In this document: one piece after another, positions 5,033 to 38,424 of the stretch
How positions within the stretch are numbered: position 1 is the first letter of the stretch
Layout of the letters: every line of letters begins with the position of its first letter
Assembly (NCBI RefSeq): GCF_002078015.1
Contig: NZ_LWBP01000089.1
Coordinates: 124,001 to 188,000 of the forward strand
DNA from: Niastella populi
GTDB taxonomy: Bacteria; Bacteroidota; Bacteroidia; Chitinophagales; Chitinophagaceae
DNA: 64,000 nt
Direction: 5' to 3'
The notes under the pieces: model-generated
Databases searched by the model: none
Told to the model about the DNA's origin: nothing
What the model saw: only the letters and a program-made list of their open reading frames with translations
Made by a program: the position numbers and the translations under genes

Positions 5033-5102
5033 GCGCTTCGTGAATCGGCAATCGTGAAACGTGAAACGCTGAAGTTTGCCGTTTCACGTCTGCCGTTTGC
5101 CG
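5033..5102. repeat. Fold-back heptamer array (array A)
   Basis: Ten consecutive 7-bp units run without a break in spacing from 15 bases after the DUF4374 stop codon. The first half uses GTGAAAC-type units (5054, 5061); the second half switches to the opposite strand sense (TTTGCCG at 5075 and 5096, TTTCACG at 5082) while keeping the same 7-bp phase. CGTGAAAC (5053, 5060) is the exact reverse complement of GTTTCACG at 5081-5088, so the RNA can fold back. Confidence 0.75.
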
Positions 5103-5268
5103 ACGTACGCCGCGCCGAGGTTTGCCGCCTGCCTACAAAAGCCCTGGTTACTGCAAATGATATTTAGCCACACATTATTGCAATACAAATATTCAATGCC
5201 ATGTAACTGCTATCAGTAGCTGTAATGGTCCGTTACTTTTCCACAAAGAAAGTTATCGTGATATTAAA

Positions 5269-5282
5269 GGGTAATTTTACCC
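5269..5282. promoter_or_regulatory. Palindrome upstream of GH64 gene, possible operator
   Basis: GGGTAA and TTACCC separated by two bases form a 6-bp inverted repeat 28 bases before the GH64 start codon. Position and symmetry would suit a regulator binding site or a short 5' hairpin. No matching regulator is adjacent. Confidence 0.3.
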
Positions 5283-5309
5283 AAATATCCGTTTAACTAA
5301 CATTTCTTT

Positions 5310-7502
5310 ATGAAAACGACGAAACCTTTTCTACTCAAAGCAGTATGTACAGGCCGCCGGCTGGCACTTGTACTACTTTCCTTTCTCTTTACCGGCAATA
5401 CATGGAGCCAGCCGGTAGTACCCTTTACATTCAACAACAATTCGGCTTTCAGCGATGCCAACGTGTATGTGGCAGTTGTTGGTATCATCAACGATAATCA
5501 CGTGTGGATCGATACCAAAACAGGCGCGGTGCGGCCGATGAGCGCTTCAGACAACACAGTTGCAGGACCGGTAATTGGCGGCAACCAGGGACCCGGCGGC
5601 AATGGCCGTTATGCCAACTGTTTTGCAAAACTGAGCGAGATCCCCAACAAAACCATCAATATGCCCGGCATCGCAGGCTGCCGCATATTGATCTCGTTCA
5701 ATTCACAATTATACCTGTACTTCTTTGGCGCATCGGGTGCGCCCAGTGGTTATGCGGCGCCCAACCTCGCCAATCCTACCGATCCCAACCAGGGCATCCG
5801 GTTCGAAATGATTGAGCTCACCAACGCGGCCAATGGCTTATGGGCCAATACAACAAGGGTCGATTCGTACCAATACCCCATGGGGCTTGAAGTATGGGGC
5901 AATAACGGGTTCTACAAAAAAGTAGGTGAAATAAAAACACACGCGCAGATCCTGGCGCAATGGCAGGCACAGGCGCCGGCCGCCTTTGCCGGTTGTTACG
6001 ACGCCACCAATGGCATTATTAAATTCCCGTCGAAAACAAGCGCTTTCCAAAGCGGAGCACAGGCCAATTACTTTGGTTCGTACATCGATGCCATCTGGGC
6101 CAAATACAGGAATGAGAACCTGGTATTCAACGCCGGCGATGCAGGCATCTGGAGCGGCCGCGTTTCAGGTAACGTATTTACGTTCACCCGTACCTCAGAC
6201 GGCGCGGTTGGTGTAATAGCCAACAAACCCACCAATACCGAAGCCATGGAAGGCAGTGGTGTATTGGCCAGCGGCGGCCAGTGGGACAAAGTAGTGCAGG
6301 CGCAGGTTTGCGCAGCGATCAACCGCCATGCCATCGATCTCAACCTTGGCAACGGCGCTATGCAGGACCTGGCCAACGAATCGAAATACTATGTAACGGC
6401 ACCATACAACTGGTACTGCAAATTCTGGCATCAGCCCGATATCAGTCTGAACAGCCTTACCTACTCGTTCTGTTACGACGATGTGTTCGATAAATCATCG
6501 ACCATCAACGCTTCATCGCCCATCCGCGCAACCATCACTGTGGGTGGTTATCCCGGCGGAACATCAGGCGGCGTGGCAACCGTTTATAAAGATTGCAACT
6601 ATGGCGGTTCGGCAGTGGGCCTGAATGCAGGCTCATATACCCTAAGCCAGCTGAATGCACTGGGTATTTTGAATGACGACATTTCCTCGATAAAAGTAAA
6701 CAGTGGATATAAGGTTACGCTTTACAAACACGACAATTTTGGCGGAGGCGCAATAGTTAAGACCGGGGAAGACGCCTGCCTGGTCGACGATAACTTCAAT
6801 GATTCTACCTCATCACTGAAAGTGGAAACGAATTCTTCCGCTTTCTCAACGGTTATACAGGCGGAAGATTATACTTATATGGCGGGTGTGCAAACAGAAG
6901 CCACCACCGATGCGGGCGGCGGTTTGAATGTTGGTTATATAGAAGCCGGTGACTGGATGTCGTACAACGTAACCATCCCCGTTGCTGGCACCTATCGCGT
7001 TATCTACCGTGTAGCGAGCCCCAACAGCGGCATGACCCTGCGTTTGGAAAAAGACGCCGGAACAACGCAACTGGGTTCGGTAACCATTCCCAATACCGGC
7101 GCCTGGCAAAACTGGACCACCGTAGCGCATAATGTAAACCTGCCTGCAGGTACTTACCCTATCGGCATTGCTACGGCAACCGGCGGGTTCAACATAAATT
7201 ACTTAACCATCACCAGTAATTTATCGGCGCGCCTGGCTACACAGAACATAGAACAGCAGCTGGCAGCGGCGGAAAACAGCGCCCTGAGCATTGCGCCCAA
7301 TCCGGTACGCAACCAGCTGTACCTTAAAGGGTATGAAAAAGTACAAACACTGACCGTGTATGACCTTGGCGGCCGCGAATTGATGAAAGTGACCAAACCG
7401 GGCAGCACCATAAACATTCAATCACTGAATGCCGGTGTATATATTATTAAATTAAATCGTACCGATAACAGTGTTAAAACTGTAAAGATCGTAAAGCAAT
7501 AG
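5310..7502 (+). CDS. Secreted GH64 beta-1,3-glucanase with crystallin-like domain, CBM6 and T9SS tail
   Basis: A 730-residue secreted enzyme. After a signal peptide (cleavage near residue 34, GNTWSQ), residues about 36-415 match the GH64 thaumatin-like fold: NPTDPNQGIRFEMIE, GLWANTTRVDSYQYPMGLEV, the YIDAIW helix, WSGRVSG and the closing YSFCYDD. GH64 enzymes cut beta-1,3-glucan such as laminarin or fungal wall glucan. Residues about 420-508 carry two beta/gamma-crystallin-like motifs (YKDCNYGG, YKHDNFGG). Residues about 513-640 are a CBM6 carbohydrate-binding module (QAEDY start). Residues about 655-730 are a type A T9SS sorting domain (APNPVRNQLYL to VKIVKQ), so it is exported by type IX secretion and either released or surface-held. 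A strong terminator follows. The gene appears monocistronic. Confidence 0.88.
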   Translation: MKTTKPFLLKAVCTGRRLALVLLSFLFTGNTWSQPVVPFTFNNNSAFSDANVYVAVVGIINDNHVWIDTKTGAVRPMSASDNTVAGPVIGGNQGPGGNGRYANCFAKLSEIPNKTINMPGIAGCRILISFNSQLYLYFFGASGAPSGYAAPNLANPTDPNQGIRFEMIELTNAANGLWANTTRVDSYQYPMGLEVWGNNGFYKKVGEIKTHAQILAQWQAQAPAAFAGCYDATNGIIKFPSKTSAFQSGAQANYFGSYIDAIWAKYRNENLVFNAGDAGIWSGRVSGNVFTFTRTSDGAVGVIANKPTNTEAMEGSGVLASGGQWDKVVQAQVCAAINRHAIDLNLGNGAMQDLANESKYYVTAPYNWYCKFWHQPDISLNSLTYSFCYDDVFDKSSTINASSPIRATITVGGYPGGTSGGVATVYKDCNYGGSAVGLNAGSYTLSQLNALGILNDDISSIKVNSGYKVTLYKHDNFGGGAIVKTGEDACLVDDNFNDSTSSLKVETNSSAFSTVIQAEDYTYMAGVQTEATTDAGGGLNVGYIEAGDWMSYNVTIPVAGTYRVIYRVASPNSGMTLRLEKDAGTTQLGSVTIPNTGAWQNWTTVAHNVNLPAGTYPIGIATATGGFNINYLTITSNLSARLATQNIEQQLAAAENSALSIAPNPVRNQLYLKGYEKVQTLTVYDLGGRELMKVTKPGSTINIQSLNAGVYIIKLNRTDNSVKTVKIVKQ

Positions 7503-7504
7503 GC

Positions 7505-7545: not shown

Positions 7546-7612
7546 CACCAAATAAGACAAATGTTTTACAGAAGGTATCACCCCGAAACAGCAGTTTCTC
7601 TATTTTTGCAAT

Positions 7613-13925: not shown

Positions 13926-15080
13926 ATGAAAAAAGCATTTATTCTATTCCTCATTACGGCTGTTACAGGTATTTGTATCTCATTTACCCGCAACACAATT
14001 GACCCCGCTTATCCCTCCTGGGTGAAAACCTATGAAGACACACTCCTGTATTGGTATTCCCAACCCGCCAAAAACTGGCCAAAGCCAACCATCGACAGTG
14101 GCGTGGTATGGACCGAACTGGGCATTGTGCCCGAAAGCCCTTTGAAACCTCAATTTGATGTACTGAAAGATAAAATTGAGTTAGGCAAACTGTTGTTCTT
14201 CGATCCGCGCCTGAGCGGGAGCGGACAAATCAGTTGCGCCAGTTGTCATGTACCTGATCTGTCCTGGACGGATGGCCGCGAAAAATCGGCCGGTCACGAC
14301 CAGCAAATGAACAAGCGCAATGCACCCACCATTCTGAACAGCTGGTTTTACAAAAACCTTTTCTGGGATGGCCGCAGCAATGGCCTCGCCGATCAGGCAT
14401 TTGGCCCCATCAACAGCGAATCGGAAATGCACAGCAGTATGAGCGCAACCGTTTCCACCCTTGAAAAAATAGCTGCCTACAAACCCCTGTTCCAAAAAGC
14501 ATTTGGTTCGCCTGAGATAAATCCCGAAACAGTAACGGAAGCGATCGCCACATTTGAAAAAACGGTGGTGAGCCGCAAAGCCGCTTTCGATAAATTCGTG
14601 GCCGTGCGTGATACCATTGAATTCAGCAAAGCTGCATTGCGTGGCCTTCACCTGTTTCGTACAAAAGCGCGTTGTATGAACTGTCACAACGGTCCCCTGT
14701 TAACCGATAATTCATTTCACAATATCGGCCTCACCTATTTTGGCCGCGAGTATGAAGATTTAGGAAGATATAAAGTCACTCACAAACCCGAAGATGTAGG
14801 CAAATTCAAAACGCCATCGCTGCGCGATGTGATTCGCACCCGGCCCTGGATGCACAACGGGTTGTTCGATAATATCGAAGGTGTGTTGAATATTTACAAT
14901 TCGGGTATGCCTATCAGGCCAAAACCCGCACAGGAAAACGATCCGTTGTTTCCCAAAACAGACCCGCTGATAAAAAAGCTGAATCTTACCAAAGCAGAAA
15001 AGGCCGATCTCATTGCTTTTCTGGAATCGATAACCGCGGTGCCGACGAAAGTGCGGCAACCGGTATTACCCGGACGATGA
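13926..15080 (+). CDS. Di-heme cytochrome c peroxidase family protein (CcpA/MauG/MbnH-like)
   Basis: A 384-residue exported protein with an N-terminal hydrophobic segment and two c-type heme sites, CASCH at residues 104-108 and CMNCH at 250-254. The surroundings match the bacterial di-heme peroxidase fold: LGKLLFFDPRLS before the first heme, RNAPTILNSWFYKNLFWDGR, and FKTPSLRDVIRTRPWMHNGLF near the end. Members either reduce peroxide or, as in MauG and MbnH, oxidise residues of partner proteins. It is the last gene of the TonB-DUF4876-DUF6850 operon. In the methanobactin systems an MbnH peroxidase modifies MbnP to make a copper site; a similar role on one of the neighbours is possible but is only an inference. 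Confidence 0.88.
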   Translation: MKKAFILFLITAVTGICISFTRNTIDPAYPSWVKTYEDTLLYWYSQPAKNWPKPTIDSGVVWTELGIVPESPLKPQFDVLKDKIELGKLLFFDPRLSGSGQISCASCHVPDLSWTDGREKSAGHDQQMNKRNAPTILNSWFYKNLFWDGRSNGLADQAFGPINSESEMHSSMSATVSTLEKIAAYKPLFQKAFGSPEINPETVTEAIATFEKTVVSRKAAFDKFVAVRDTIEFSKAALRGLHLFRTKARCMNCHNGPLLTDNSFHNIGLTYFGREYEDLGRYKVTHKPEDVGKFKTPSLRDVIRTRPWMHNGLFDNIEGVLNIYNSGMPIRPKPAQENDPLFPKTDPLIKKLNLTKAEKADLIAFLESITAVPTKVRQPVLPGR

Positions 15081-15091: not shown

Positions 15092-15241
15092 TAAGTAGTA
15101 AGTTGTAAGTTGTAAGTTATAAGTAGTTTACGCGCGAAGCGCGATGTTGTATTCACTTAAAACTTATAACTTAAAACATTTAACTTTTTTGCTTTCACCT
15201 GTATTCGCTTTAAGCTTTCGGCTTTCAGCTTTTAGCTGTAT
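15092..15241. repeat. Compound fold-back heptamer array (array B)
   Basis: Three 7-bp arrays in one intergenic region. 15092-15126 has five TAAGTTG-like units; 15155-15189 has five ACTTAAA-like units of opposite sense; 15207-15241 has five GCTTTCA-like units. A 12-bp stretch at 15113-15124 is the exact reverse complement of 15162-15173, and the spacer contains a CGCGC/GCGCG hairpin, so the first two arrays form one long stem. CTGTATTC occurs at 15199 and 15236. Confidence 0.8.
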
Positions 15242-15259: not shown

Positions 15260-15973
15260 ATGCATTCCACCGACATAATCGTTCTGTTATTCATCTGCGC
15301 CATGGTAGCCGCCAGCATCGTTTTCCGCAAATTAACGGTAGCTGGTGCACTTACAGGCGGCTGCCTGGCGGCATTGCTGTATAAAGGCGCAGGTATTACC
15401 GGTATCATCATGCTGGGTGCATTTTTTGTCGCCGGTACGGCCGCCACTGCTTTTGGCCGCCGGCGAAAAGAACAGCTGGGTATTGCAGAACATAATAAAG
15501 GCCGGCGAAACGCCGGGCAGGTGCTGGCCAATGGCGGTGTGGCCGCATTAGCCGGCCTACTGGCCTGGATGTATCCGCAACAGGCATCTTTATGGCAACT
15601 GGCCGCAGCCGCGTCGCTCGCCTCTGCCAGCGCCGACACGCTGTCTTCTGAAATGGGAAGCGTGTATGGAAGATCGTTCTACAATATTCTTACCTTAAAA
15701 AAAGACCAGTGCGGGCTCGACGGGGTAATAAGTTTGGAAGGCACCTTGTGGGGCATTGCCGGCAGCGCCCTGATCGCGGGGGTCTTTGCGATCGCTTATG
15801 GATATAGCGTATTGGCCCTTTGGATCGTGGTGGCCGGTTTTATTGGCAATATGGCCGATTCCCTGCTCGGCGCCTCACTCGAACGCAAAGCCTGGTTAAA
15901 GAACGACCAGGTAAATTTTCTGAATACGCTTATTGCCGCATTAGCCGGCATAGCTGGTACCAGGCTTTTATAA
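15260..15973 (+). CDS. DUF92 family integral membrane protein
   Basis: A 237-residue polytopic membrane protein. Hydrophobic segments cover most of the chain, and the DUF92 landmarks are present: AGALTGGCLAALLYKG near the start, a basic cytoplasmic loop ending in RRNAGQVLANGG, ASASADTLSSEMGSVYG in the middle and GNMADSLLGASLE near the end. DUF92/TMEM19 proteins are related to CTP-dependent isoprenoid-alcohol kinases; the plant member VTE6 phosphorylates phytyl phosphate. The bacterial role is unknown. TATTTTTG at 15247-15254, just before the ATG, resembles a -7 element. The gene is convergent with the DinB-like gene. Confidence 0.85.
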   Translation: MHSTDIIVLLFICAMVAASIVFRKLTVAGALTGGCLAALLYKGAGITGIIMLGAFFVAGTAATAFGRRRKEQLGIAEHNKGRRNAGQVLANGGVAALAGLLAWMYPQQASLWQLAAAASLASASADTLSSEMGSVYGRSFYNILTLKKDQCGLDGVISLEGTLWGIAGSALIAGVFAIAYGYSVLALWIVVAGFIGNMADSLLGASLERKAWLKNDQVNFLNTLIAALAGIAGTRLL

Positions 15974-16025
15974 TGACGGAAACCAGCGAGGCATGAAAAT
16001 AATGGGCATCTCCTAAATAAAAGAA

Positions 16026-16067
16026 CCACAAACCACAAACAACAAACAACAAACAACAAACAACAAA
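16026..16067. repeat. Heptamer array (array D)
   Basis: Two CCACAAA units followed by four CAACAAA units, all in phase, filling the gap between two convergent genes and stopping six bases before the stop codon of the DinB-like gene. Confidence 0.8.
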
Positions 16068-16072
16068 CCGTC

Positions 16073-16543: not shown

Positions 16544-16659
16544 TGTTTTTAATTTTTGTTACTGAGGTAATATTTCGAAAATTTACGAAAAAAAGCCCGC
16601 TACAATCTAATTCAACTGATTAAATTGCTAACATAAATTACATTACGCAAAAAGATTAA

Positions 16660-21162: not shown

Positions 21163-21316
21163 TGGTAATGGATTAGAATTTATACTTCTCGCAAAGTATG
21201 GCATCTTTCAAGCAAAAACAATACCAGATATTGAAAAAATTTCGATGCATTATAGTTTGTTTTATAGTGTAGTACTGTTACTTCGAATAATCACGACAGA
21301 TAGCTCCAAAATTTTC

Positions 21317-21542
21317 GATTTATGATTTATGATTTCGGGATTTATCAAAAGGCTGAAATTTAAATGAAATCTCAAAATCTCTAAATCTCCAAATCCCAAA
21401 ATCAGCAATCAGCAATAAAAAGGTGGAATCCTTATGAGATCCCACCTTACATATTGATCAGGACCTTAACTCTTATATAAAGTTTCGGGCCTGGTATTAA
21501 ATCTAAAAATCAGCAATCAGACATCAACAATCAGCAATCAAT
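21317..21542. repeat. Three short tandem arrays with opposite sense around a terminator (array E)
   Basis: 21317-21337 holds three GATTTAT-like heptamers. 21367-21413 holds five AAATCTCN-like octamers and one heptamer of the opposite sense (ATC against GAT). 21508-21542 holds five AATCAGC-like heptamers and ends on the first base of the SusD stop codon. A minus-strand terminator lies between the last two. Confidence 0.75.
21416..21448 (-). terminator. Intrinsic terminator of the SusCD operon
   Basis: Read on the minus strand, AAGGTGG...CCACCTT (21442-21448 with 21420-21426) with partial inner pairing is followed by a run of T. It lies about 95 bases after the SusD stop codon. Confidence 0.75.
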
Positions 21543-23509
21543 TACCAGCCGGGGTTTTGCATACCGGCTTTTTCTTCAGCCGACAATGGTCTTCCCGATG
21601 TCTTTATCTGATCGAGGAACGACTGAGGAATGGGCCTCAGGTAATCCTTGGCGGCCGGTTTTGCTTCGGCATTGAACGCCTGGCAGCGGGCCACCAGTGT
21701 TTTGGTGCGCGTCAGGTCTTCCCACCGCGTCAACTCACCTATGAGTTCGCGTGAGCGCTCATTCAAAATAAACTGCAGGAATTTACTGGCATCGCTGCCG
21801 GCATTCAGCAAACTGTAGAATTCACGTGTTGAGCTGAAGATCTCGCCTACATTATTGATGTGCATATCGCTTAAAGTACTTGCCGTGGTGGGCACTGCGA
21901 TATCGTTCGATTCGTAATACGTGTTCCGGTCGCTGTAGGAAACAAATGCTGCGGTATTAGCGGCTGCATTGGTTTTGTAAGCCACGCCGCCGTCAACGTA
22001 AAAATCACGGTCCTCGCCATTCTTATAAGCCGCGCGGTCGCGCAGCGCGTTGATAAAAGGCAATGCATCGACATACTGTCCTTTACGGCCATACGCTTCG
22101 GCTACCATTAAATAGGTATCGGCGAGGCGCGCCAGTATTCCGTCGCGGCGGCCGAACTGCGATGCTACCGTTTCCCGTGATCCATCGGCAAATTTCGACA
22201 AACCTACATAACGGGAGGCGCTGTAATTTCCATGGTTTCCCAACATATTTCCGGCCTGGCCATTGAAATAACGCACAAACATATGCGGTGCTCGAAAGTT
22301 TATATTATCCGACGTATAGCGGTTGTCGCCGGCATTGTTTACTATATATAGAATAGACTCCTGTCCGCCGGTAAATTTTGCTACACCCACCTGTGCGGGC
22401 GTGGGGGCATAGGTAGCATTCCATTTGGGTGCGCCATTGGGGTTGTTGCAGAGATACCGGGTCTTGAAGCTCTTCCAGAAACGCGAATCATTTACGCGGT
22501 CAAATACATCCAGGGCGTAATCGGTTGAACGCAGGCGTTGGAACTCGCGGCCGCCGGGCAGATCGCGCACCATACCGGCCAGGTTCTGGTAAACCGACGG
22601 ATAATGTAAATGCAGCTGATTGCCATAACGACCCTGGGTAGAAGTATTACTGCTGAACTGGGCAGAAAGGATGATCTCTGCATTTGTTTCATTGGCGGCG
22701 TCGGGACCGGTATAATTCCAGAGATCGACGAAATTGGTTGCCAGTTTATGACCGCTGGTATTGATCACCTCGTTGCCGTATTTGATAACCTCATCGAGGT
22801 CGGCGGCCTTAGTGGCACTGTTCCAGCCATTATATGCTTCGCTGGCCCTGAACAAATGCACCTTTGCGAGGAAATGTGCGGCCGCCCATTTGGTAATACG
22901 GCCTCTTTGCGCCGCTGTGGGCGGCAGCAGATCATAAGCCTGCTTCAGATCGCCCAGGATCTGTTCAAACACTTCCTGCTCGCTATTGCGGGTAAATTCA
23001 AATTCAACCGATGTCGATGGAAGCAGTTTCAACGGTACGCCGCCATACTGGTTCAGCAGTTTGAAATAATTGAAGCCACGCATAAAGTACCCCTCTCCCA
23101 GCCTGGTGTTCTTGTTAGGGCCTTCATAATAAGTAGGCACGTTCTGGATAATGATGTTGGCAGAGTTGATGGCCCCGTACATGTTATCCCAAACGGTACG
23201 TACATCACCGGTAAGTGAATTCAGGTTGGCATCATAAGAGTTCCACATCTGCATGGTGGGGTCGCCGCCAACGGTAAACTCGTCAACACCATAGTTTGTG
23301 GTGGCATAAGCCCACTCGTAGTTGAAATGAAAACGAAGGCTTTGATACATACCGGTAGCCAGCCCGTCGAGCCCCGCCGTTGTTTCATAATCTGCCGTGC
23401 TTCTTGCAGTGATCAGTTCTTCGTTCAAAAATGACTTACTACAGCCACCTCCAATAGCGAGCGCCAGTGCCAATGCGCCTACGGGAGTAAATATTTTGAA
23501 GTATTTCAT
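21542..23509 (-). CDS. SusD/RagB family nutrient-binding lipoprotein
   Basis: A 655-residue lipoprotein (lipobox AIGGGC, Cys about 23). It has the SusD-like N-terminal region (LNEELITARSTADYETTAGLDGLATGMYQ), the TPR-like helices with VWDNMYGAINSANIIIQN, RGFNYFKLLNQYGGVPL, and the C-terminal ILNERSRELIGELTRWEDLTRTKTL that is diagnostic of the family. SusD proteins form a lid on the SusC transporter and capture oligosaccharides or peptides. It follows the SusC gene by 23 bases. The glycan cannot be told from sequence; the linked GxGYxYP protein is the only enzyme-like candidate nearby. Confidence 0.95.
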   Translation of the reverse strand: MKYFKIFTPVGALALALAIGGGCSKSFLNEELITARSTADYETTAGLDGLATGMYQSLRFHFNYEWAYATTNYGVDEFTVGGDPTMQMWNSYDANLNSLTGDVRTVWDNMYGAINSANIIIQNVPTYYEGPNKNTRLGEGYFMRGFNYFKLLNQYGGVPLKLLPSTSVEFEFTRNSEQEVFEQILGDLKQAYDLLPPTAAQRGRITKWAAAHFLAKVHLFRASEAYNGWNSATKAADLDEVIKYGNEVINTSGHKLATNFVDLWNYTGPDAANETNAEIILSAQFSSNTSTQGRYGNQLHLHYPSVYQNLAGMVRDLPGGREFQRLRSTDYALDVFDRVNDSRFWKSFKTRYLCNNPNGAPKWNATYAPTPAQVGVAKFTGGQESILYIVNNAGDNRYTSDNINFRAPHMFVRYFNGQAGNMLGNHGNYSASRYVGLSKFADGSRETVASQFGRRDGILARLADTYLMVAEAYGRKGQYVDALPFINALRDRAAYKNGEDRDFYVDGGVAYKTNAAANTAAFVSYSDRNTYYESNDIAVPTTASTLSDMHINNVGEIFSSTREFYSLLNAGSDASKFLQFILNERSRELIGELTRWEDLTRTKTLVARCQAFNAEAKPAAKDYLRPIPQSFLDQIKTSGRPLSAEEKAGMQNPGW

Positions 23510-28647: not shown

Positions 28648-28803
28648 TCTCTGGCACTTTAGGCTGAAATTGGGTTTAGCGTACCGTTAAAGACAAATTC
28701 CGCAACAAAATGCCGGGGCATTATTGCTAAATTTTGTGCAGTTTCGTCCTGGTTGCAGCACCAAATTAACTATAATGGCCATTCCTGACAAAAAATACAC
28801 CTA

Positions 28804-29054
28804 TAAGCTGTAAGCTGCAAGCTGTAAGCTGCAGGCGAATACAGGGCTTCACGTGAATACAGCAGAAGGCTGAAGGCTGAAGCGAATACAGCCCGAACTG
28901 AATAACTGGATAACTAAAACCCGGAACCGGAAACTATGAACTATGAACTATGAACTATGAACTGAGAACTGAGAACTGAGAACTGAGAACTGAGAACTGA
29001 GAACTAAATGAACGCAGCACTCAATAACTTACTAACTGAATAACTCAATAACTG
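28804..29054. repeat. Long compound array of 7- and 8-bp units (array C)
   Basis: From 28804: four TAAGCTG-like units plus a degenerate one; two AGGCTGA units at 28867-28880; then at 28933-29002 ten perfect heptamers in a row (four ACTATGA, six ACTGAGA); then four AATAACTN octamers at 29023-29054 that run into the last codons of the GxGYxYP gene. GAATACAG occurs at 28837, 28855 and 28884, the reverse complement of the CTGTATTC words in array B. Confidence 0.85.
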
Positions 29055-31108
29055 GCCACCCCGGTTTCGGGAATACGGCAGTTCATATCTCCCTTCTTAG
29101 TGATGGTGGCGGGATTTACCATTAACCCGTTCGCTTCTCTTATCAGCTGGAAAATATGATCGGGTCTTACCACTATATAATTTGAATTGAGCGAACTGGC
29201 CACATTTTTAAAATTGGTTGGTTTTACATCCGTCCAGGGCTGCGCCTGTATGATCACGAACCGGGGCTGCGTACCGTTCCAGCCATTGGAAGCGGAAGCG
29301 ATATGGTCCTTCATTGCCTGTTCATTGGTGCAATAGTTACAGGAAAGCGCCATACCCGGTAAACTGTTATTGTAGATCGTCAGCCCCCCGCCCGTGTTTT
29401 GAGCGGTTAACCCAAGCAGGGTCGGCGCATGGGTGGCAAAGGCCTGTCCAACATTCTGGTTGATGCCTCCGGTAATGGTGTTCCAGATGGTGACCACTTT
29501 AAAACCGGCGCGTTTGTTATAATCTTCGGTTTTGGCAACAAACTGGTTCAACAGGCTTTGATTGGGAAAACTGTTGGGGTAGGCATACCCATATCCCGAG
29601 GGCCCCGAGATCAGGTTATCGTTGTTGGTGGCTGTTTGCGAATAAAAGTTCAACGCACCCGGCATGGCGTCGAGCATGGCGGGCGATAAGGTCCAACCGA
29701 TGGGTACCGAACCGCGGTCGGGATTGTTCCAGAGCTTGCGCATCAGGTGCTCGATATACTGCAGGTTGTCGCCATCGCTCAGAATAAAGGCTACATAGAT
29801 CTTGTTTTGAAGCGCGGGTTTTGGCGGAACCGGTTTCAGGTTCACGGTTCTGGAAGTACCGCTGTGCACGGTAAGGTTCGAGCACCAGTCGCTGGCGATA
29901 GTGGCAATACCGTATTGCGAGGCACGCTGCACGCCGGGCGCTTCCTCGGGCCACCAGCCTATTACATTCGAACCGGCCGGCATAGACGACAGGAAACTGT
30001 TCAGTAAGGTGCTTTCGGCCGGAATATTGGGATCGAGCCAGATAACGGCTGCCCCCAACGCGGTGGCATACTCGCGTAAAGCCGCTTTATGCACCTCGGG
30101 GTTCAGGCCAACCAGCACCCGGTGATCGATCGTTGGCCAGTAAGTGTTGTATAAGGTTTGGTATACCTGCAGCTTGCTGGTGAATTGCCCGCGCAGATCG
30201 AGCAATACGGGTAAGTTGTAAGGCGCTGCTGTCAACCGCGCCGATAAGGCCGGCGAAGCGATCAATGCGTTCCTGCTTTTAGCCAGCATGGTGGCCAGGT
30301 TCACCGTATGGATCTGGTTGGGATCGTAAATGATGATGCCGCTTAGTTCGCTGCGGTATTTTCCGATGAGCGTCCATTTATCGGCATGTTCCGTCCAGCT
30401 CAGTCCCAACGACTGCAACCAGGTATAGGGCCCTTCTGCAAATGCATCGCCTTCATAGGAGAAAATGCGAGGCTTCGTTTTGTTTACAATGCCCTTCAGC
30501 GAGGCAAACAAATACATTTCTGCCGAAGAGTTGTTTTGTTGCACCGCCACCCAGTCGACCTTGGTATAGGAAGTGCCGCGCCAGTACACCCGTAACTCGA
30601 GCGACTGGTTATTGGCAGGCATGGTAAAGGGCAGGGTGAAATTGGTGTAGTTGGAAGCAACGGGAAACTGTTGCCGGGTAATGGTGCGCGAAGCAAGGAT
30701 CTGGCCGGTAGTGGCGTTCCTTACATCCAGATCTACTATGGGGTCGTTGTTGGCGGTATTGTTATCTACCTTCATCCTGAACTCCGCCACATTGGGCCCG
30801 GCAGGTATGGTGGCATCATAGGGCCCATAGATCATATGATCATTGGCCGCATCGATGCCCGTCTGGCAAAGCCAGCCATCGGTTTCAAGCCGCCCGGTTT
30901 TGTGACCGAGGTTCGGCCCCTCGGCTTCCCAGCGCGTTGATGATTCGCGCAGTATGATGAGGTCCTGCGTTTGAGCCGGCGCAGGAAATGACGGCAGTAA
31001 CTGACCTGCAGGCCAGTTCAATTGTGCTATGGTTGGTGTTGAAATAAATGGCAGGAATAGCAGTATCCATACGGCTACCTTTGGTAGTACAGCAATCGGT
31101 TTGGTCAT
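29045..31108 (-). CDS. GxGYxYP family secreted protein (putative glycoside hydrolase)
   Basis: A 687-residue exported protein (signal peptide to about residue 28, PTIAQ). Residues about 45-190 form a beta-sandwich resembling a carbohydrate-binding or galactose-binding module (VAEFRMKVDNNTANN, YWRGTSYTKVDWVAVQ). The rest matches the GxGYxYP family, including the name-giving motif in GPSGYGYAYPNSFP and conserved FILSDGDNLQYIEHLMRKLW. The family is predicted to be a glycoside hydrolase from its occurrence in polysaccharide loci; activity is not proven. Here it lies on the same strand upstream of the sigma, FecR, SusC and SusD genes and probably degrades what they import. The last codons and stop are made of array C repeat units. 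Confidence 0.85.
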   Translation of the reverse strand: MTKPIAVLPKVAVWILLFLPFISTPTIAQLNWPAGQLLPSFPAPAQTQDLIILRESSTRWEAEGPNLGHKTGRLETDGWLCQTGIDAANDHMIYGPYDATIPAGPNVAEFRMKVDNNTANNDPIVDLDVRNATTGQILASRTITRQQFPVASNYTNFTLPFTMPANNQSLELRVYWRGTSYTKVDWVAVQQNNSSAEMYLFASLKGIVNKTKPRIFSYEGDAFAEGPYTWLQSLGLSWTEHADKWTLIGKYRSELSGIIIYDPNQIHTVNLATMLAKSRNALIASPALSARLTAAPYNLPVLLDLRGQFTSKLQVYQTLYNTYWPTIDHRVLVGLNPEVHKAALREYATALGAAVIWLDPNIPAESTLLNSFLSSMPAGSNVIGWWPEEAPGVQRASQYGIATIASDWCSNLTVHSGTSRTVNLKPVPPKPALQNKIYVAFILSDGDNLQYIEHLMRKLWNNPDRGSVPIGWTLSPAMLDAMPGALNFYSQTATNNDNLISGPSGYGYAYPNSFPNQSLLNQFVAKTEDYNKRAGFKVVTIWNTITGGINQNVGQAFATHAPTLLGLTAQNTGGGLTIYNNSLPGMALSCNYCTNEQAMKDHIASASNGWNGTQPRFVIIQAQPWTDVKPTNFKNVASSLNSNYIVVRPDHIFQLIREANGLMVNPATITKKGDMNCRIPETGVASY

Positions 31109-31195
31109 AGAAAAAGTTTAATGTTAAGAGTAGTGTACTACGAATTTCGGCATTTAGCAAAAGCGTTTTGGAGCGAAGATGGGTTTGGCGGTAAT

Positions 31196-31376
31196 TTGAA
31201 ACGCGGTGAATAAGTTGAAACGGATTGAATAAGTTGAAAAGTTGACAGAGTTGATACAGTTGACAGAGGATCCTAATCTCAGGACTTCCGATTAAACGCT
31301 AAACTCGCTAACGTTATTAACTTTATCAACTGTATTACCTTTATCACCTGTATCAACTGTATCACCCTATCAACCC
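31196..31376. repeat. Period-9 fold-back array (array F)
   Basis: 31196-31233 is a 19-bp unit present twice (15 of 19 bases identical). It passes into TTGACAGAG-like units of 8-9 bp (31234-31268). At 31324-31376 six TATCAACTG-like 9-mers of opposite sense follow; CAGTTGATA is the reverse complement of TATCAACTG, so the two halves can pair. The second half covers the stop codon of the VOC gene (31370-31372). Confidence 0.75.
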
Positions 31377-32107
31377 GCCTTCAACTCCGCCAACAATCTC
31401 CTCTCCTCCAAAACCTCACTATCGGAAAAGGTCATAATCAATTCCTCCGCAGCATTAATCAATTCACTAAACCGATCGCCATCCTGCAACCGCAATGCAA
31501 CATCAGCCCGTAAGATCAGCACTTTAAGCAGGTTAAATTTGTCATTGACATCTGGCGCTGCCAGCGCTTTGTCGAGCGCACGGGCCGCTGTTTCAAAATC
31601 GCCATGTGAATCGGCGAGGCGGCTGCCCAGTTCATATGCTTTAGCCAGCGGCGTGCCTATTACCGGCGCTGTGTTATTTTCAGCAAAGACCAGGCTGTCC
31701 TTTTTTTGAATAGGCTGCCCTATCCTGATATAGTTGCCGCTGGGATCAACGATTATAAACTGGCGCACTCCATATGCGGGCATATCTTTTAGCGGGTTGA
31801 TCCGGGGAGTTCCTTTCAATGGCACTTTGTTATACAGCGTTTTTAATCCCGCACGGCAGGTTTCATAAAACCGGTCGATCTCCGTAACCATCAGGTAACA
31901 GGTACTGTAATTGCCGGCAGGCGCCAGTTGTTTCAGCGCAAAAAAATGAACTTCAAGATCATTCAACCGGAATGCGATGTAATTATTGGGGATCTTTTGC
32001 TTATACGTTACAACGGCGCCTAATGCTTTGTAAAATTTTTCCGTTTCATTGATCGATGTGCAGGGAAGCAATGGAATGGCATAGGAACGGTCGTTTGTTT
32101 CAGGCAT
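31370..32107 (-). CDS. VOC (glyoxalase/bleomycin-resistance) family protein with helical C-terminal extension
   Basis: 245 residues. Residues 1-125 match a vicinal-oxygen-chelate domain: LLPCTSINETEKFYKALGAVVTYK, EVHFFALKQL, then YGVRQFIIVDPSGNYIRIGQ. Such proteins resemble bleomycin-binding resistance proteins or metal-dependent dioxygenases and glyoxalases; the metal residues are not fully conserved to my eye. The C-terminal 110 residues are helical with a repeat-like pattern (AYELGSRLADSHGDFETAARALDKAL), possibly TPR-like. Directly upstream on the same strand is an AraC regulator, which may control it. Confidence 0.8.
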   Translation of the reverse strand: MPETNDRSYAIPLLPCTSINETEKFYKALGAVVTYKQKIPNNYIAFRLNDLEVHFFALKQLAPAGNYSTCYLMVTEIDRFYETCRAGLKTLYNKVPLKGTPRINPLKDMPAYGVRQFIIVDPSGNYIRIGQPIQKKDSLVFAENNTAPVIGTPLAKAYELGSRLADSHGDFETAARALDKALAAPDVNDKFNLLKVLILRADVALRLQDGDRFSELINAAEELIMTFSDSEVLEERRLLAELKAG

Positions 32108-32193: not shown

Positions 32194-32240
32194 GTTACCC
32201 GTCAACTAGTTAACTCGTCAACCCGTTAACTTGTTAACCT
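32194..32240. repeat. Octamer array (array G)
   Basis: One 7-bp and five 8-bp units of the form GTYAACYN fill the gap before the AraC gene and continue over its stop codon (32226-32228), supplying its last codons. The unit consensus is the same as in array H, 6 kb away. Confidence 0.8.
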
Positions 32241-33044
32241 TTCCCCCACTTCCTGCAGCTGCAGAAAACCCGAAGGCGATAGACCCGTAAATTCTTTAAA
32301 ATGGCGGTTCAGGTGCGACTGGTCGTAATAACCAAGATCGAGCGCTATACCGGTGAGGTTTTGCGGTACTTTACCTGCAGGGCAGCAAAGCGTTTCCATC
32401 AGGCTTTCAAAACGCGCTATCTTGAAATAGGTTTTTGCCGAAAAACCGGTGAGGTATTTAAAATGCCTTTCAAACTGCCGCTGCGAAAGGTTCACCTCGC
32501 CGGCCAGTTCACTCACCGACGTATGCTGTGCCAACCGGTGCAGGGATGTTACAAACGCTTCAAAGCGGGTTAACGTGGCAAACCTTTGCTGTATTTGTGA
32601 TTGAAGGAAGTCAGATATAGTGGTCACTCTTTTTTCAAATGAACCTGCTGCAAATATTTCACCGGCTAGTTCATGCCCCCTGCCATTTAACAACGATGAA
32701 ATATCAACATATTGATTGGTAAGCTCCGTTGCCGGTATATTGAACAGAAGCGGTATGGCGTGTGCATATAACCGAACACCAAAGATACCATTGAAGGTAT
32801 CGGTAGAAGTATATCGCCTGCAGGTACTTGCCTGTCCGTAAAAACAGGCGGCGGGCACCTGAACGGCATCTCCTTTTTCATTGTTGGTTAAATAATTGCC
32901 CGCATAACAAAAAAGCAGCTCCACCTTACTGGTGGCAGTGGCATGATACGTATGTGCCTGGTTGCTGCCTATGGCCAGTTCCCCTTCCCAGAAGAGAGCA
33001 ACATAATTGCGGAGGTTTGGTGCCGGAAGCGCTGTCTTATACAT
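32226..33044 (-). CDS. AraC family transcriptional regulator
   Basis: 272 residues. The N-terminal 150 residues are a cupin-like sensor region (YVALFWEGELAIG, ATSKVELLFCY). The C-terminal 100 residues are a classic AraC double helix-turn-helix: SVSELAGEVNLSQRQFERHFKYLTGFSAKTY and then GIALDLGYYDQSHLNRHFKEFTGLSPSGF. It is of the DUF6597/AraC layout common in this phylum. It lies upstream of the VOC gene on the same strand. The last residues (RLTS and stop) are encoded by array G. Confidence 0.92.
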   Translation of the reverse strand: MYKTALPAPNLRNYVALFWEGELAIGSNQAHTYHATATSKVELLFCYAGNYLTNNEKGDAVQVPAACFYGQASTCRRYTSTDTFNGIFGVRLYAHAIPLLFNIPATELTNQYVDISSLLNGRGHELAGEIFAAGSFEKRVTTISDFLQSQIQQRFATLTRFEAFVTSLHRLAQHTSVSELAGEVNLSQRQFERHFKYLTGFSAKTYFKIARFESLMETLCCPAGKVPQNLTGIALDLGYYDQSHLNRHFKEFTGLSPSGFLQLQEVGERLTS

Positions 33045-33108
33045 GCAGCGCTAAGGTAAGAATTTTGAGAATTGCTGGTTCTGTATACCCTTAAACAGGT
33101 CATCGCTC

Positions 33109-33507
33109 CCACGGTATTTTTCCGCGCAGCGCTTTTATGATCAGGTAAACGCCCACGAGATTACAAAAGAAGGCGCACCCGAAAATCCCGAAACACTGGG
33201 CCTGCTGATGGAAATGCCCGAGCAAATTCAATACAATGCACAGCAACCCGGCATCTATCCGTTTGCCATCTACAGCATGAATGATTACCTGAAAGCATTA
33301 TACCATACGCTGATCGATAAAGCCAACCCCGAAGTAACGCATCCCAACTGTTTGCGCAGAACCATTGCCATCAACAACCTGAACCTTTCGGGCAGGGGGC
33401 GCAAGCTGCCAAAGAAAACCATTGCCGCCTGGTTGAAAACGGAAAAGAGGGCGCAAGAAAATTCTTCGCCCCCCTTCCCGGTTAACTTATCATTTGGCAG
33501 CAACTAA
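33109..33507 (+). pseudogene. Patatin-like phospholipase remnant
   Basis: An open stretch with no proper start reads PRYFSAQRFYDQV, then APENPETLGLLMEMPEQI and NDYLKALYHTLIDKA. The last part aligns well with the region after the catalytic DGG in patatin-like proteins; compare ENPQTLGFFLYDK and AYCKALFETLLDS in the gene at the left edge of this window. The DGG segment itself seems deleted between RFYDQV and ITKEGAP. The 3' end overlaps the last 18 bases of the sugar dehydrogenase gene on the other strand. Confidence 0.6.
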
Positions 33508-34875: not shown

Positions 34876-35551
34876 AATAAATCAATTTGATTTTACAAAC
34901 AATTGCAACAAACAAGCGCACACAGGATCATGAAAGCATCTTTTAAAAAAGTTTCAGCTTTCAGCACGTTGTTTTTCCCTGGATAAAATGGACGTGTGTC
35001 AGATTTAGGAAATGAATTAACTGGTAGTATTTAATGTACGGTCTTTATTAGTGCGCCCAAATCAAGAGTAAGAAAAGCAAGTTGATTATCAGAAGATGTT
35101 GGATACGAGAGAATGTTTTATCTGGCATAAAGATAAAATGTTTTTTGAAATGATAACATTAAAAATTATTGGCGTTGGGCCAATAAACCCCGGTATTTCA
35201 CAATGCAAACTTCCCTGTCAAAATACACACAAGCCGCAAAACCTCTTCCGTTTCCGGTATCTGTGCCTTCTGCCTGAAACGCGGGAATTAAAACCGCAGG
35301 CTTGCGCGCTTTACCGTTATGCACGCGCTTTAACAACATTTTCATACCTGGATAACTGCGTCGATTTGGCCCATAACTGTGCAGTTTTGGCCCATAAGCG
35401 TGCAAAAAGCAGGATTTGCCGGTAATACCCGTTTTATCCACCTTTTTTTTCTCTGAAAAAAGGTCTTATTTTACTCCGGAATTATGCGCCTTATCCATGT
35501 TTAACCCGGTATATCCTTTTTCGCTACCCTAAACCACTAACCTCCTTGACG
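34876..35551. other. Divergent intergenic region with a 19-bp direct repeat
   Basis: About 675 bases between two divergent genes. At 35365-35383 and 35386-35404 a 19-bp sequence beginning TTTGGCCCATAA is repeated with two mismatches at a spacing of exactly 21 bp, as expected for two regulator sites on the same face of DNA. An open frame at 35096-35425 is present but does not look like protein. Both flanking genes must have their promoters here. Confidence 0.4.
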
Positions 35552-38266
35552 ATGAAGGCAAGAGCAGTAAGCTGCATTTTTATTGTTCTATGTTTATTTA
35601 ATAAAGCGTATAGCCAATCTTCCTGTCCGCCTAATCTTGATTTTGAATCAGGTACCTTCGAACATTGGGAATGTTTTGTTGGAACTACCGATACCATCGG
35701 CGGAAAAAACAGGATGTTGCTCTCTCCTTCGGAACCCGCTCCGGGACGACACGAAATTATCACCGCAGCATCACTGCCCGAATTGGATAATTATGGCAGA
35801 TTTCCGAGGCTTTGTCCGTACGGCGGAAACTACTCCGTTAAACTGGGTAATGAACAAACCGGCGCGCAGGCCGAAGGCATTTCTTATACATTCGTAGTAC
35901 CAACAACTGTCGATACATTCACTTTCACTTATTTCTATGCGGTAGTTTTTGAAGATCCGCAACACGATCTGCCTGAACAGCCGCGGTTCTTTGTAACGGC
36001 CTACGATGTGGAAACCGGAAATTTGATCAACTGTGCATCCTTCGACTATGTTTCCACCGCAAACCTTCCCGGTTTCAAAAATTCATCCGTAGGTTCTTCG
36101 GTGCTGTATAAAGACTGGACGCCCACATCGCTGCAGTTTGCGGGCCTCGGCGGCCATAAGGTGCGACTGGAATTTCGTACTGCTGATTGTACCCGTACCG
36201 GTCACTTTGGATATGCCTATCTGGATATTGCCAGCGCCTGCTCGAACATTCTTGCAACCGCACCCTATTGTATAGAAACGAATTCGCTCATTCTCGATGC
36301 GCCTTTTGGTTTTCAATCCTATACCTGGTACAATTCCGATTTTACAACGATCATAGGCACAGGGCAATCGATGAATATCAGTCCGCCCCCTGCCACCCAG
36401 GGAGTATTTTATGTCGATGTAGTGCCCTACCCCGGTTTTGGCTGCCGCGATACGTTACAGGCATTTGTAAAACCAATGCCGGTGCCCGATACGCCCGACT
36501 TTAAATCACCGGTAAAACTTTGCCAGTTCGATGCCGCAAATCCATTAACGGCAAAGCCGTTGCCAAGCCATACATTGTTATGGTATACTACAGCTACCGG
36601 CGGTACGGGAACATTTGATGGGCCTGTGCCCTCCACCGCCCAGGCTGGCTCAACGAAGTACTGGGTTTCGCAGAAAGCATTATTTGGTTGCGAAGGATTC
36701 AGGCGGGAGCTTACGGTAACTGTAATTCCCACTCCCCTGGCTTCTTTTAATATCAATAAAATAAGACAATGCCAGGTAGGTAACAGTTTTACTTTTTCAA
36801 GCACTTCAACCAATTTGCTCAACCCCACATACACCTGGGAATATGGTAACGGACAAAACTTTAACTCGGCTAATCCAATAAATACATACAGTTTCCCGGG
36901 CGGCGGTACTTTTTATGTAAAGCTGAAAGCAACAAATGATAATTCCTGTTCGGCAACACAAACACAAACCGTAACGGTGATACCCAAACCGGTGGCGAAG
37001 TTTGACTACCCCATACCGGTTTGTGAAAACAAAACCACCATTTCACTCACCGACCGTTCCTCCGTTCCTATGGGTATTGCCGGCATCAACAAATGGTGGT
37101 GGAATGTCAATGGAAATATTTATACAAGCCAAACCGCGCCCTCATCCATAGCACCGGCGGCCGGACAATACCCCGTAAAACTGGTCGTTTCAACAATAGA
37201 GGGCTGCCAGTCAGATACGAACACCACCATTTTACAGGTTCGCCACAACCCCGCTGTCGCATTTGGGATCGGCGACCTCCTGTGCAATAACGAGCTTATC
37301 CGTTTTACCGACCAGTCGTTCTTTCCACCCGCCGCAACCGGCGAAATAGTAACAAAATGGTACTGGTCGTTCGACAACGGCATGATGAATTCCATTGAAA
37401 AAAATCCGCGCAGCATGTTCACCGCCGGCGTTCACCATGCAAAGCTGATTACTGAAAGCGCCTACGGCTGCAAAAGCGAACCACTCGAAAAAAGCTTCGA
37501 TATCTGGCCCAAGCCAATCGTACAGCTCGGGATCAGCGATTCCTGTATCCATCTTCCCGTTACCTACACTGCAACCGATCAGTTGGGTAATGTGGTCAGT
37601 TACAACTGGTATTTTATCGATATGATCAGGAAAGGGCCTACTTATTCCTCCATTACAAAAACACATAACCGTGAAGGAAAACGGCCGTTTACTTTGATCA
37701 CATATACCGACAAAGGGTGCAAAGACACTATTTATCGTCCGTTCGCTATTTATGAGAACAAATCATTTGCAGGTTACGATACGCTGGCTGCATTCAATCA
37801 ACCGGTTCAGCTCGATGCAAGAGGGGAACCCGGTATGCAGTACAACTGGACTCCTTCCGTTGGGTTGAACCGTACAGATATTGAAAAGCCGGTTGCCACC
37901 TACGACCGCGACCAGCTTTATCATTTGTATACGGTGTCGCCGCAGGGCTGTGAAAAACATACGCAGATCTTTATCAAACGATGGGCAGGTCCCGAACTTT
38001 TTGTACCCAGTGCGTTCACACCCGATAATGACGGCGTAAATGATAAATTGAAGGTAAAACCTACCGGGTATATGTCGTTCGGTTTCTTTGCGGTGTATAA
38101 TCGCTGGGGACAACTGGTATTCCGTACCACCAATTTCAATGAAGGTTGGGATGGAAAGCTCAACGGCAAAGATGCGGAGCCAGGCACCTATGTATACGTT
38201 GTACAGGCAGTGGATTACCACGGGCAACCGTTACACAGAAAGGGAACGGTGATCCTGTTGAGATAA
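35552..38266 (+). CDS. Large T9SS type B secreted protein with PKD-like domains
   Basis: 904 residues from the ATG at 35552 (MKARAVSCIFIV signal peptide, cleavage after AYSQ). The N-terminal 220 residues form a MAM/jelly-roll-like domain (NLDFESGTFEHWECF). Then come Ig-like or PKD-like beta-domains (TYTWEYGNGQNFNSANPINTY is a PKD pattern). The end is a type B T9SS domain: LFVPSAFTPDNDGVNDKL, YNRWGQLVFRTTNFNEGWDGK, then GTYVYVV, the gliding-motility C-terminal type. Such proteins are exported by the type IX system and are often adhesins or surface structural proteins. No catalytic domain is recognised. It is followed by array H. Confidence 0.85.
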   Translation: MKARAVSCIFIVLCLFNKAYSQSSCPPNLDFESGTFEHWECFVGTTDTIGGKNRMLLSPSEPAPGRHEIITAASLPELDNYGRFPRLCPYGGNYSVKLGNEQTGAQAEGISYTFVVPTTVDTFTFTYFYAVVFEDPQHDLPEQPRFFVTAYDVETGNLINCASFDYVSTANLPGFKNSSVGSSVLYKDWTPTSLQFAGLGGHKVRLEFRTADCTRTGHFGYAYLDIASACSNILATAPYCIETNSLILDAPFGFQSYTWYNSDFTTIIGTGQSMNISPPPATQGVFYVDVVPYPGFGCRDTLQAFVKPMPVPDTPDFKSPVKLCQFDAANPLTAKPLPSHTLLWYTTATGGTGTFDGPVPSTAQAGSTKYWVSQKALFGCEGFRRELTVTVIPTPLASFNINKIRQCQVGNSFTFSSTSTNLLNPTYTWEYGNGQNFNSANPINTYSFPGGGTFYVKLKATNDNSCSATQTQTVTVIPKPVAKFDYPIPVCENKTTISLTDRSSVPMGIAGINKWWWNVNGNIYTSQTAPSSIAPAAGQYPVKLVVSTIEGCQSDTNTTILQVRHNPAVAFGIGDLLCNNELIRFTDQSFFPPAATGEIVTKWYWSFDNGMMNSIEKNPRSMFTAGVHHAKLITESAYGCKSEPLEKSFDIWPKPIVQLGISDSCIHLPVTYTATDQLGNVVSYNWYFIDMIRKGPTYSSITKTHNREGKRPFTLITYTDKGCKDTIYRPFAIYENKSFAGYDTLAAFNQPVQLDARGEPGMQYNWTPSVGLNRTDIEKPVATYDRDQLYHLYTVSPQGCEKHTQIFIKRWAGPELFVPSAFTPDNDGVNDKLKVKPTGYMSFGFFAVYNRWGQLVFRTTNFNEGWDGKLNGKDAEPGTYVYVVQAVDYHGQPLHRKGTVILLR

Positions 38267-38336
38267 AGACAGTTACAGGTTTCAGCGCTTGCCCCGCTCC
38301 TAACCCCTCAACCCCGACTTCACCGGGGCAGGTTAA

Positions 38337-38424
38337 GTCAACTCCTCAACCAGTCAACTCCTCAACCAGTCAACTCGTCAACCAGTTAACTCGTCAACCC
38401 GTTAACTCGTCAACTAGTTAACTT
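38337..38424. repeat. Eleven-unit octamer array (array H)
   Basis: Eleven 8-bp units of the form SYYAACYN (GTCAACTC, CTCAACCA, GTTAACTC and similar) follow each other with no spacing error, 70 bases after the T9SS type B stop codon. A short CCCCG/CGGGG hairpin (38312-38328) lies just before. The array ends 34 bases before the next start codon. Confidence 0.85.

Follow-up and report, generated by a model that had tools for sequence, protein, structure and literature searches.

Facing polar arrays of 7-, 8- and 9-bp tandem units between genes of Niastella, lying mostly at gene 3' ends and possibly acting at transcript ends

The window analysed here is a stretch of 64,000 nucleotides from Niastella populi, a member of the Chitinophagaceae (contig NZ_LWBP01000089.1, here C89, positions 124001-188000 of the 8.61-Mb assembly G000), in which the original prediction had noticed eight intergenic regions holding tandem units of 7, 8 or 9 bp. 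Our results revealed that about one quarter of the sampled gaps between genes of this genome carry such arrays, that the arrays lie mostly at the 3' ends of genes, and that two arrays in one gap usually face each other with a fixed polarity, a G-leaning arm followed by a C-leaning arm. Moreover, the same unit families are common to different loci and species, while within one and the same gap the family changes between species; these features, like the facing polar arms, had been missed by the original prediction. The array system is real and genome-wide and its anatomy is secure; as to its function, the elements might take over the part of intrinsic terminators at the 3' ends of genes, a tentative reading that we weigh below.

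The sample of the own genome comprised 1,094,159 bp with 606 gaps of at least 40 bp and 3013 genic chunks of 270 bp, the small contigs L013, L018-L023 and L025 being left out of the lag count over the 606 gaps. From the same-genus genome G071, 580,000 bp were sampled, of which 400,000 bp (227 gaps) entered the lag count, and from each of seven other Niastella genomes 40,000-200,000 bp. Genes were called with our own codon-usage model, so start codons are less certain than stops. The array score is that of the best segment of matches for a given lag, counting +1 per match and -1.5 per mismatch, with thresholds of our own choice (11 by default, 9 or 10 in some tests) and dinucleotide shuffles as control. 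At the default threshold, 105, 57 and 13 of the 606 gaps scored at lags 7, 8 and 9, against 1.2, 0.6 and 0.6 in shuffles, while the control lags 4, 5, 6, 10, 11, 12 and 13 gave 0, 1, 2, 0, 6, 1 and 0 gaps (shuffles 0.2-1.2 across lags). A slight excess is seen at lags 3 and 11, with 6 gaps each against 0.6 and 0.4 in shuffles, and the multiples 14, 16 and 18 gave 83, 45 and 8 gaps. The excess over shuffled intergenic sequence is confined mainly to lags 7-9, as had been predicted. In G071 the same lags gave 34, 14 and 0 of 227 gaps, and Tandem Repeats Finder (TRF), run over 1342 pooled gaps, gave 508 rows for period 7, 252 for period 8 and 63 for period 9, against 8, 35 and 31 for periods 6, 10 and 11. 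Within genes the signal nearly vanishes (2, 1 and 1 of 3013 chunks at lags 7, 8 and 9). The arrays are, in other words, strongly intergenic tandem repeats of 7-bp units such as define intergenic heptamer repeats, with 8- and 9-bp arrays present besides.

Unit length is kept far more strictly than unit sequence. Among 438 arrays of at least four copies in the pooled gaps, the mean mismatch is 17.9% and the indel rate 1.1%, 366 of them being free of indels, which bears out the predicted constancy of length within an array; the predicted drift of sequence needs amending, since it is uneven: in the families looked at, two to three or more positions vary beside a core that is better conserved. For example in GATTTNNN units, positions 1-5 are fixed at 86-92% and the final three are more variable; GTTNACNN, ATGGTSA and AATGTGNT units vary likewise, while GCTGAAN and AGGCANNN are less clear. 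Moreover, adjoining units are likelier to be alike than units taken from across the same array (excess 0.055; 117 of 169 informative arrays, p 6e-11), as exemplified by the array at 28932-29005 (Table 1). The idea that a process acts on units by their length stands well with these data, for unit length is kept and adjoining units are alike, as local duplication predicts.

In the own genome, arrays occur in 28 of 93 convergent, 106 of 401 tandem and 20 of 112 divergent gaps, and they cover about 80, 66 and 22 bases per kb, respectively. Divergent gaps are hence array-poor, not array-free, and the claim that arrays lie only at 3' ends is not supported genome-wide; the further expectation that they would not be equally common in divergent gaps or genes is not refuted by the densities or by the genic counts above. 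The preference for 3' ends is nevertheless strong. An array extends across the edge of the gene in 87 cases at 3' ends and in 6 at 5' ends, and begins no more than 15 nt from that edge in 127 and 34 cases, respectively. At many crossed 3' ends the stop codon lies inside the array, with a median overlap of 6 nt (for example at 29.05, 31.37 and 32.23 kb of the window), and the outer edge of 129 elements of G-C order lies at a median of 7 nt (convergent gaps) and 5.5 nt (tandem gaps) from 3' ends, with medians of 58.5 and 71 nt from 5' ends.

The arms are polar. When units are read inward from the gap edges, one strand prevails on the left and the other on the right for GTTTRTK (left 31:2, right 3:39), GATTTNGR (22:2, 3:14), GTTRACRR (19:1, 1:9), AATGTGMT (10:0, 3:13) and ATGGTSA (14:2, 3:8); for TAAGTT, AACTGAAT, AACCGGT, ACAGGTT, AACGCTK and AACTRTG the bias is not significant. 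Among 99 gaps with exactly two clearly leaning arrays, 73 have the order G-C and only 4 the order C-G (C-C 14, G-G 8), so that as a rule the G-leaning strand reads away from the gene on either side. Every G-leaning array precedes every C-leaning one in 91 of the 101 gaps that hold both leans, and where unit length differs between the two sides the counts are G-C 10, C-G 1, C-C 7 and G-G 1. The lean is kept even by arrays that have no inverted partner, both near 3' ends (72 to 15) and at 5' edges, whether close to the edge (34 to 8) or far from it (41 to 13), though hardly when they lie far from 3' ends (28 to 20). Where a gap has no array, its outermost 35 nt, read inward, lean to G in 259 and to C in 291 cases at 3' ends, and in 484 and 231 at 5' ends; since array-free 5' ends have a G lean of their own and 3' ends have none, the polarity rule is cleanest at 3' ends. 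It also extends to other genera of the Chitinophagaceae, where the lean is 36 to 6 and C precedes G in none of 12 multi-array gaps, as counted over 17 loci, many of them chosen for holding a unit pattern, with L051 overlapping L118 and with array-less stretches and locus L050 excluded. An inverted partner in the same gap was found for 84 of 228 arrays, against 3.6% when sought in other array gaps; a direct partner was found for 25%. The arms are separated by a spacer with a median of 50 bp. Spacers are mostly unique and share no palindrome: among 103 of them the largest cluster has 7 members, all of the GTTTGTK family, with a core recurring in three genomes, and a conserved core as a general rule had to be dropped, being found in this family only. 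A mirror-image origin of the two arms was likewise not supported, for the mirroring of unit order exceeded its shuffled value in only 22 of 78 pairs, the mean lying slightly below it (p 0.001). Arms without mirrored order speak against recent copying from arm to arm and against selection for exact pairing, and together with the likeness of adjoining units they fit slippage within each arm.

Orthologous gaps show which features are kept and which are free. We compared 553 pairs of such gaps over nine Niastella genomes; the pairs are mutually dependent and come from an array-rich region of C89. Arrays stand in both members of 150 pairs, in one only of 163 and in neither of 240; permutation within species, context and array-free length gives 119.5 expected pairs occupied in both (sd 4.4, maximum 136 in 2000 permutations). 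At threshold 10, 187 pairs are occupied in both, and in 105 of these the family differs. In such family-changed pairs the outer flanks have an identity of 0.56 (random flank pairs 0.41) and the interior 0.41, paired arms tend to persist (26/14/26/39, p 0.016), and the array start at 5' edges lies no more than 10 nt from the corresponding position in 36% against 14% permuted. The change can be seen by eye at two loci. The divergent gap C89:85997-86227, both flanks of which are kept in five species, has AGTTTTA arms in G000, GTTNCCGG in G122, AGTTACC in G117, and GTTTGTG in both G071 and G118; at C89:111211-111364, G000 and G118 share GTTTATG, and G122, G071 and G117 share GATTTNGG. In the window itself, the gap 15974-16072 holds AACAACA in G000; G071, G117 and G118 have 8-bp GATTTNGR units there, and 7-bp units of other kinds stand in G124, in G120 and, at a weak score of 10, in G119; in this comparison the called genes of G123 overlap, the two genes are not neighbours in G122, and G121 was left out. 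What is kept between species is the occupied gap with its facing arms, and what is free is the sequence and the unit length.

Considering this anatomy, the best explanation we can offer, at slightly below even odds, is that the arrays are arms of satellite-like dyad-symmetric elements settled in particular gaps, mostly straight after the stop codon, and that at 3' ends these elements would do the work of an intrinsic terminator. In a full element a spacer would separate the G-leaning arm from a C-leaning arm that faces it, so that either transcript could form a stem-loop. Transcription would terminate nearby, probably via Rho (a rho gene is present in the genome), and the stem would block 3' exonucleases and shield the neighbouring gene from read-through; units would be gained and lost through slippage of 7-9 bp, so that the arms change fast as the architecture persists. 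This functional part is drawn from sequence. The evidence nearest to it comes from canonical terminators with a T-tract within 250 nt, which in tandem gaps follow 8 of 143 genes with an array at most 30 nt from the stop, 22 of 94 with an array further away and 133 of 636 with none, and in convergent gaps 20 of 105, 16 of 67 and 89 of 260. The scarcity near arrays compared with no array is significant in both contexts (p 3e-6 in tandem, 0.004 in convergent gaps), as is near against far in tandem gaps (9e-5), and it is also seen in the own genome alone (tandem 3/73 near an array vs 60/282 without, convergent 7/41 vs 46/122). It is concentrated in short gaps, namely convergent ones with 20-80 nt free of array (3/56 near an array vs 27/64) and tandem ones of 80-140 nt (1/64 vs 22/153); in the remaining length strata the difference is not significant. 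Gaps with arrays also have the lower median RNA folding z: -3.76 with and -1.72 without array in convergent gaps (n 22 and 14), -2.26 and -0.75 in tandem gaps (n 77 and 84), -0.77 and -0.35 in divergent gaps (n 6 and 12). By inspection the arrays themselves end without a T-tract, and so do not have the short GC-rich hairpin plus T-tract of an intrinsic terminator. The role at transcript ends that had been proposed is hence partly supported, through the scarcity of terminators at stop-abutting arrays.

Several observations weigh against such a role. Terminators do not differ between near and far arrays in convergent gaps (p 0.45), and no effect is found in long gaps (p 0.16-0.79 for convergent gaps with more than 80 nt free of array, p 0.22-0.37 for tandem ones above 140 nt); in tandem gaps, moreover, the scarcity may be accounted for by operons. 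Excess folding over shuffles is lacking on both strands at 28.9 kb and on one of them at 16.0 kb, and the unmirrored arms mean that exact pairing is not kept. Divergent gaps are occupied without having a 3' end to serve, and at the 3' edges of family-changed pairs the array distance is conserved in 18% against 22% permuted, which gives no signal. G-first polarity, tried as a general trait of RNA hairpins, is not common to canonical terminators: of 222 in array-free gaps 79 are G-leaning, 106 C-leaning and 37 equal.

A second explanation, unlikely on the whole yet the strongest of the rivals, is that the arrays are satellites of no function. They would expand, wherever they are harmless, through slippage by 7-9 bp, which might reflect the length of DNA that the polymerase grips; promoters and coding sequence would exclude them, so that 3' ends and convergent gaps fill, and terminators would be scarce because arrays have overgrown them or lie inside operons. 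The likeness of adjoining units, the unmirrored arms, the differences of family and length between species, and divergent gaps that are array-poor yet not empty would all be expected. Plain slippage, however, predicts neither the 73 to 4 excess of G-C order nor the polarity between arms of unequal unit length, nor does it predict families that recur across loci and genera, or a conserved core with a few variable positions.

It is rather improbable that the arrays descend from a mobile small repeat, of the kind of repetitive extragenic palindromes (REP), miniature inverted-repeat transposable elements or small dispersed repeats, which would be moved in trans and inserted into gaps, often into older copies. 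The arms would then be the ends of the element, and nesting and loss would yield mixed arms and single arms of unchanged polarity. The recurring core of the GTTTGTK spacers, the precedence of G over C in 91 of 101 mixed gaps, which fits nesting, and the change of family between conserved flanks agree with it. On the other hand, the next largest spacer clusters have only 2 members, so the other families recur as units only, and neither a target duplication nor a clean empty site was demonstrated in the gaps compared. Transposases of the Y1 type, which include the REP-associated tyrosine transposases (RAYT), were tried as partner genes and do not track the arrays, 21 of 25 genomes having them irrespective of whether arrays are present. 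As a separate matter, the number of Y1 matches is 5-7 in four genomes of other genera with array patterns (G055, G100, G104, G013), 1-3 in Niastella and 0-4 in array-poor genomes.

More speculative still is telomere-like templated terminal addition, a candidate to which we give little credence, whereby a polymerase would add polar units of 7, 8 or 9 nt to the 3' ends on either side where the DNA of a fixed gap is broken or nicked. Once rejoined, the gap would hold two arms head to head, the G-leaning strand of each pointing inward. It would explain polarity across unequal unit lengths and in single arms, the constant length and core of each family, an arm vocabulary shared without mirrored order, and different families in one gap in different species; the likeness of adjoining units already fits plain slippage. 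Finally, regulatory repeats, that is quadruplex, phase-variation or translation-initiation signals, are very improbable: 34 arrays do begin no more than 15 nt from a start codon of our gene calls, as described for TAACTGA in the Beggiatoaceae in the part of MacGregor 2015 (PMC4679880) drawn on here, yet 3' edges prevail in both counts given above, coding sequence is almost free of arrays, and GTTTGTK and GTTRACRR follow the polarity rule without runs of three G, so the rule cannot rest on quadruplexes in general.

As listed in Table 1, all eight regions of the window hold 7-, 8- or 9-bp arrays that beat dinucleotide shuffles, and all touch a gene 3' end by our own gene calls, a call at 5.0 kb having altered when the caller was refitted. 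The arrays at 15.1, 16.0, 21.4, 28.9, 31.3 and 38.4 kb reach p = 0.0033 each, the floor of 300 shuffles; with 500 shuffles, the gap 5019-5309 at 5.0 kb has p = 0.002, and so has the array at 32.2 kb if followed about 13 nt into the gene end (gap alone p = 0.023). The folding z is -2.3 and -2.4 on the two strands at 5.0 kb, -8.9 and -10.3 on the minus strand at 21.4 and 38.4 kb, and 0.3 and -0.6, that is without excess, at 28.9 kb. Among the 33 window gaps scored, the divergent ones (16544-16659, 33045-33207, 34876-35713 and 43861-44060) hold no array of score 10, as the original prediction had noted for divergent gaps; the 49.3-kb gap that it also counted as such has minus-strand genes on both sides and would be divergent only when the plus-strand tRNA-Leu at 49770 is taken into account. 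Not belonging to the 7-9 bp class, a tandem repeat of 21 bp lies at 35352-35404 in the gap 34876-35713, with about 2 copies that match at 84-89%. In an Rfam 15 scan of the window at the gathering score, tRNA was the only match and the arrays matched no RNA family. The nearest named relatives of a window protein, found at 3 loci, belong to Niastella caeni and N. vici, and Pfam matches such as SusD, TonB plug and type IX sorting domains agree with this genus.

Table 1. Tandem arrays in the eight intergenic regions of the window (TRF, detected by Tandem Repeats Finder; shuffles, tested against dinucleotide shuffles)
Position	Arrays	Setting	Basis
5043..5102	7-bp; CGTGAAA-type (to 5073) facing GTTTGCC-type (5074-5102)	after stop of gene 3768-5018	TRF
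15092..15237	three 7-bp; TAAGTTG (15092-15124) facing ACTTAAA (15155-15188), then GCTTTCA (15207-15237)	between 3' end of gene 13926-15080 and start of gene 15260-15973	TRF, shuffles
16024..16068	7-bp AACAACA/AACCACA	convergent gap 15974-16072	shuffles
21311..21540	7-bp ATTTATG-type (21311-21335), 8-bp AAATCTCN (21367-21403), 7-bp AATCAGC (21508-21540)	at 3' end of gene 21542-23509	TRF, shuffles
28801..29053 (part)	TAAGCTG (28801-28831), GAAGGCT (28862-28882), 8-bp AACTGAAT (28896-28915)		TRF, shuffles
28932-29005 (part of 28801..29053)	AACTATG x4, then AACTGAG x6		TRF, shuffles
29019-29053 (part of 28801..29053)	8-bp	crosses 3' end of gene 29045-31108	
31192..31376	9-bp AGTTGACAG-type (to 31268) facing TATCAACTG (31309-31376)	TATCAACTG array crosses 3' end of gene 31370-32107	TRF, shuffles
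32200..32239	8-bp CGTTAACT/CGTCAACC	crosses 3' end of gene 32226-33044	TRF, shuffles
38337..38423	8-bp GTCAACTC/GTCAACCA, 16-bp alternation	after gene 35714-38266	TRF, shuffles

Beyond Niastella the unit patterns are scattered. Among 117 genomes of the family the AAC-type pattern was found in 15, the GATTT type in 7, the ATGGTSA type in 24 and any of the three in 35, reversed-pattern controls being near zero in most genomes and equal to the signal in a few (such as G032 and G044); an array at lag 7, 8 or 9 occurs in 7 of 19 stretches, nearly all of 20 kb, from 17 genomes of other genera, and the ATGGTSA pattern in 11 of 296 genomes drawn across the phylum. SbcD, a subunit of the hairpin nuclease, exceeds the family cut-off in 14 of the 117 family genomes and in none of nine Niastella (G000, G071, G117-G120, G122-G124). 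Its loss as a permissive cause for inverted repeats is suggestive only, with 1 SbcD-positive genome among the 35 that hold a pattern (p 0.06, kinship uncorrected) and 69 SbcD-negative genomes without any pattern. Other short words accompany the arrays: CTGTATTC or GAATACAG stands between arrays in 27 gaps against 7.3 expected, and these words join arrays of different families within one gap in L034 and L035, which are array-rich gaps of C1, and at 15.1 kb of the window. A separate palindromic repeat like AGTGTGGCACACCT occurs at 23 of 181 loci (for example L035:10415-10472, L043:13473-16907 and L045:19395-19443) and nowhere in the window; its core word GTGCCACA is in 27 of the 606 own-genome gaps against 2.6 expected, often twice at a distance of about 18 or 33 nt.

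The arrays touch on several known systems. REP and bacterial interspersed mosaic elements (BIME) are stem-loop repeats at gene 3' ends that are held to protect mRNA ends, and together with RAYT they comprise one conserved palindrome of 20-40 nt and a linked Y1 transposase. The Niastella arms differ from them in being tandem arrays of many sequences; they have no common palindrome, and Y1 genes occur with and without them. In cyanobacteria, short tandemly repeated repetitive (STRR) or heptamer arrays reportedly lie between genes with small dispersed repeats embedded (Mazel 1990, Elhai 2008); we know of no polarity, three unit lengths or change of family between species for these. Among the open-licence papers searched, no account of such arrays was found for Niastella or the Chitinophagaceae.

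If it is true that the arrays form transcript ends, the way in which operon ends are read in these bacteria would change. In any case a clade with many interchangeable families offers natural replicates, in which the comparison of orthologous gaps can tell kept features from free ones. This matters since the heptamer excess in bacterial genomes has no agreed cause or function, as stated in Rehm et al. 2015 (PMC4692102) with reference to a 2007 survey. The nearest relatives we can name are the heptamers GGGAATC and GGGGA(T/C)T of Xanthomonas and Nostoc, read as quadruplex-forming in the excerpts of that paper used here. Those heptamers, like the arrays, are intergenic and degenerate, lie near the preceding gene (at 28 nt on average), are few between divergent genes (7-8% in Xanthomonas), form facing pairs (70 and 75 in two genomes) in which, as here, the G-leaning strand reads away from the gene, and have identical gene neighbours in two species while their sequence varies. 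They differ, as far as those excerpts go, in having one G-rich unit type per organism, whereas the Niastella arrays have many families and three unit lengths, need no G-runs and change family in orthologous gaps. The excerpts of MacGregor 2015 (PMC4679880) describe TAACTGA as an intergenic heptamer also found in five Bacteroidetes, some with other heptamers alongside; in the Beggiatoaceae genome it is one unit, mostly just 5' of start codons, whereas 3' ends dominate here. No single named unit, be it GGGAATC, GGGGAYT or TAACTGA, covers the many families of Niastella. To sum up, on the material drawn from these papers we would not file the arrays under REP or intrinsic terminators but beside the heptamer pairs of Xanthomonas, as a repeat system that is partly new in its many families, its three unit lengths and the change of family in orthologous gaps.

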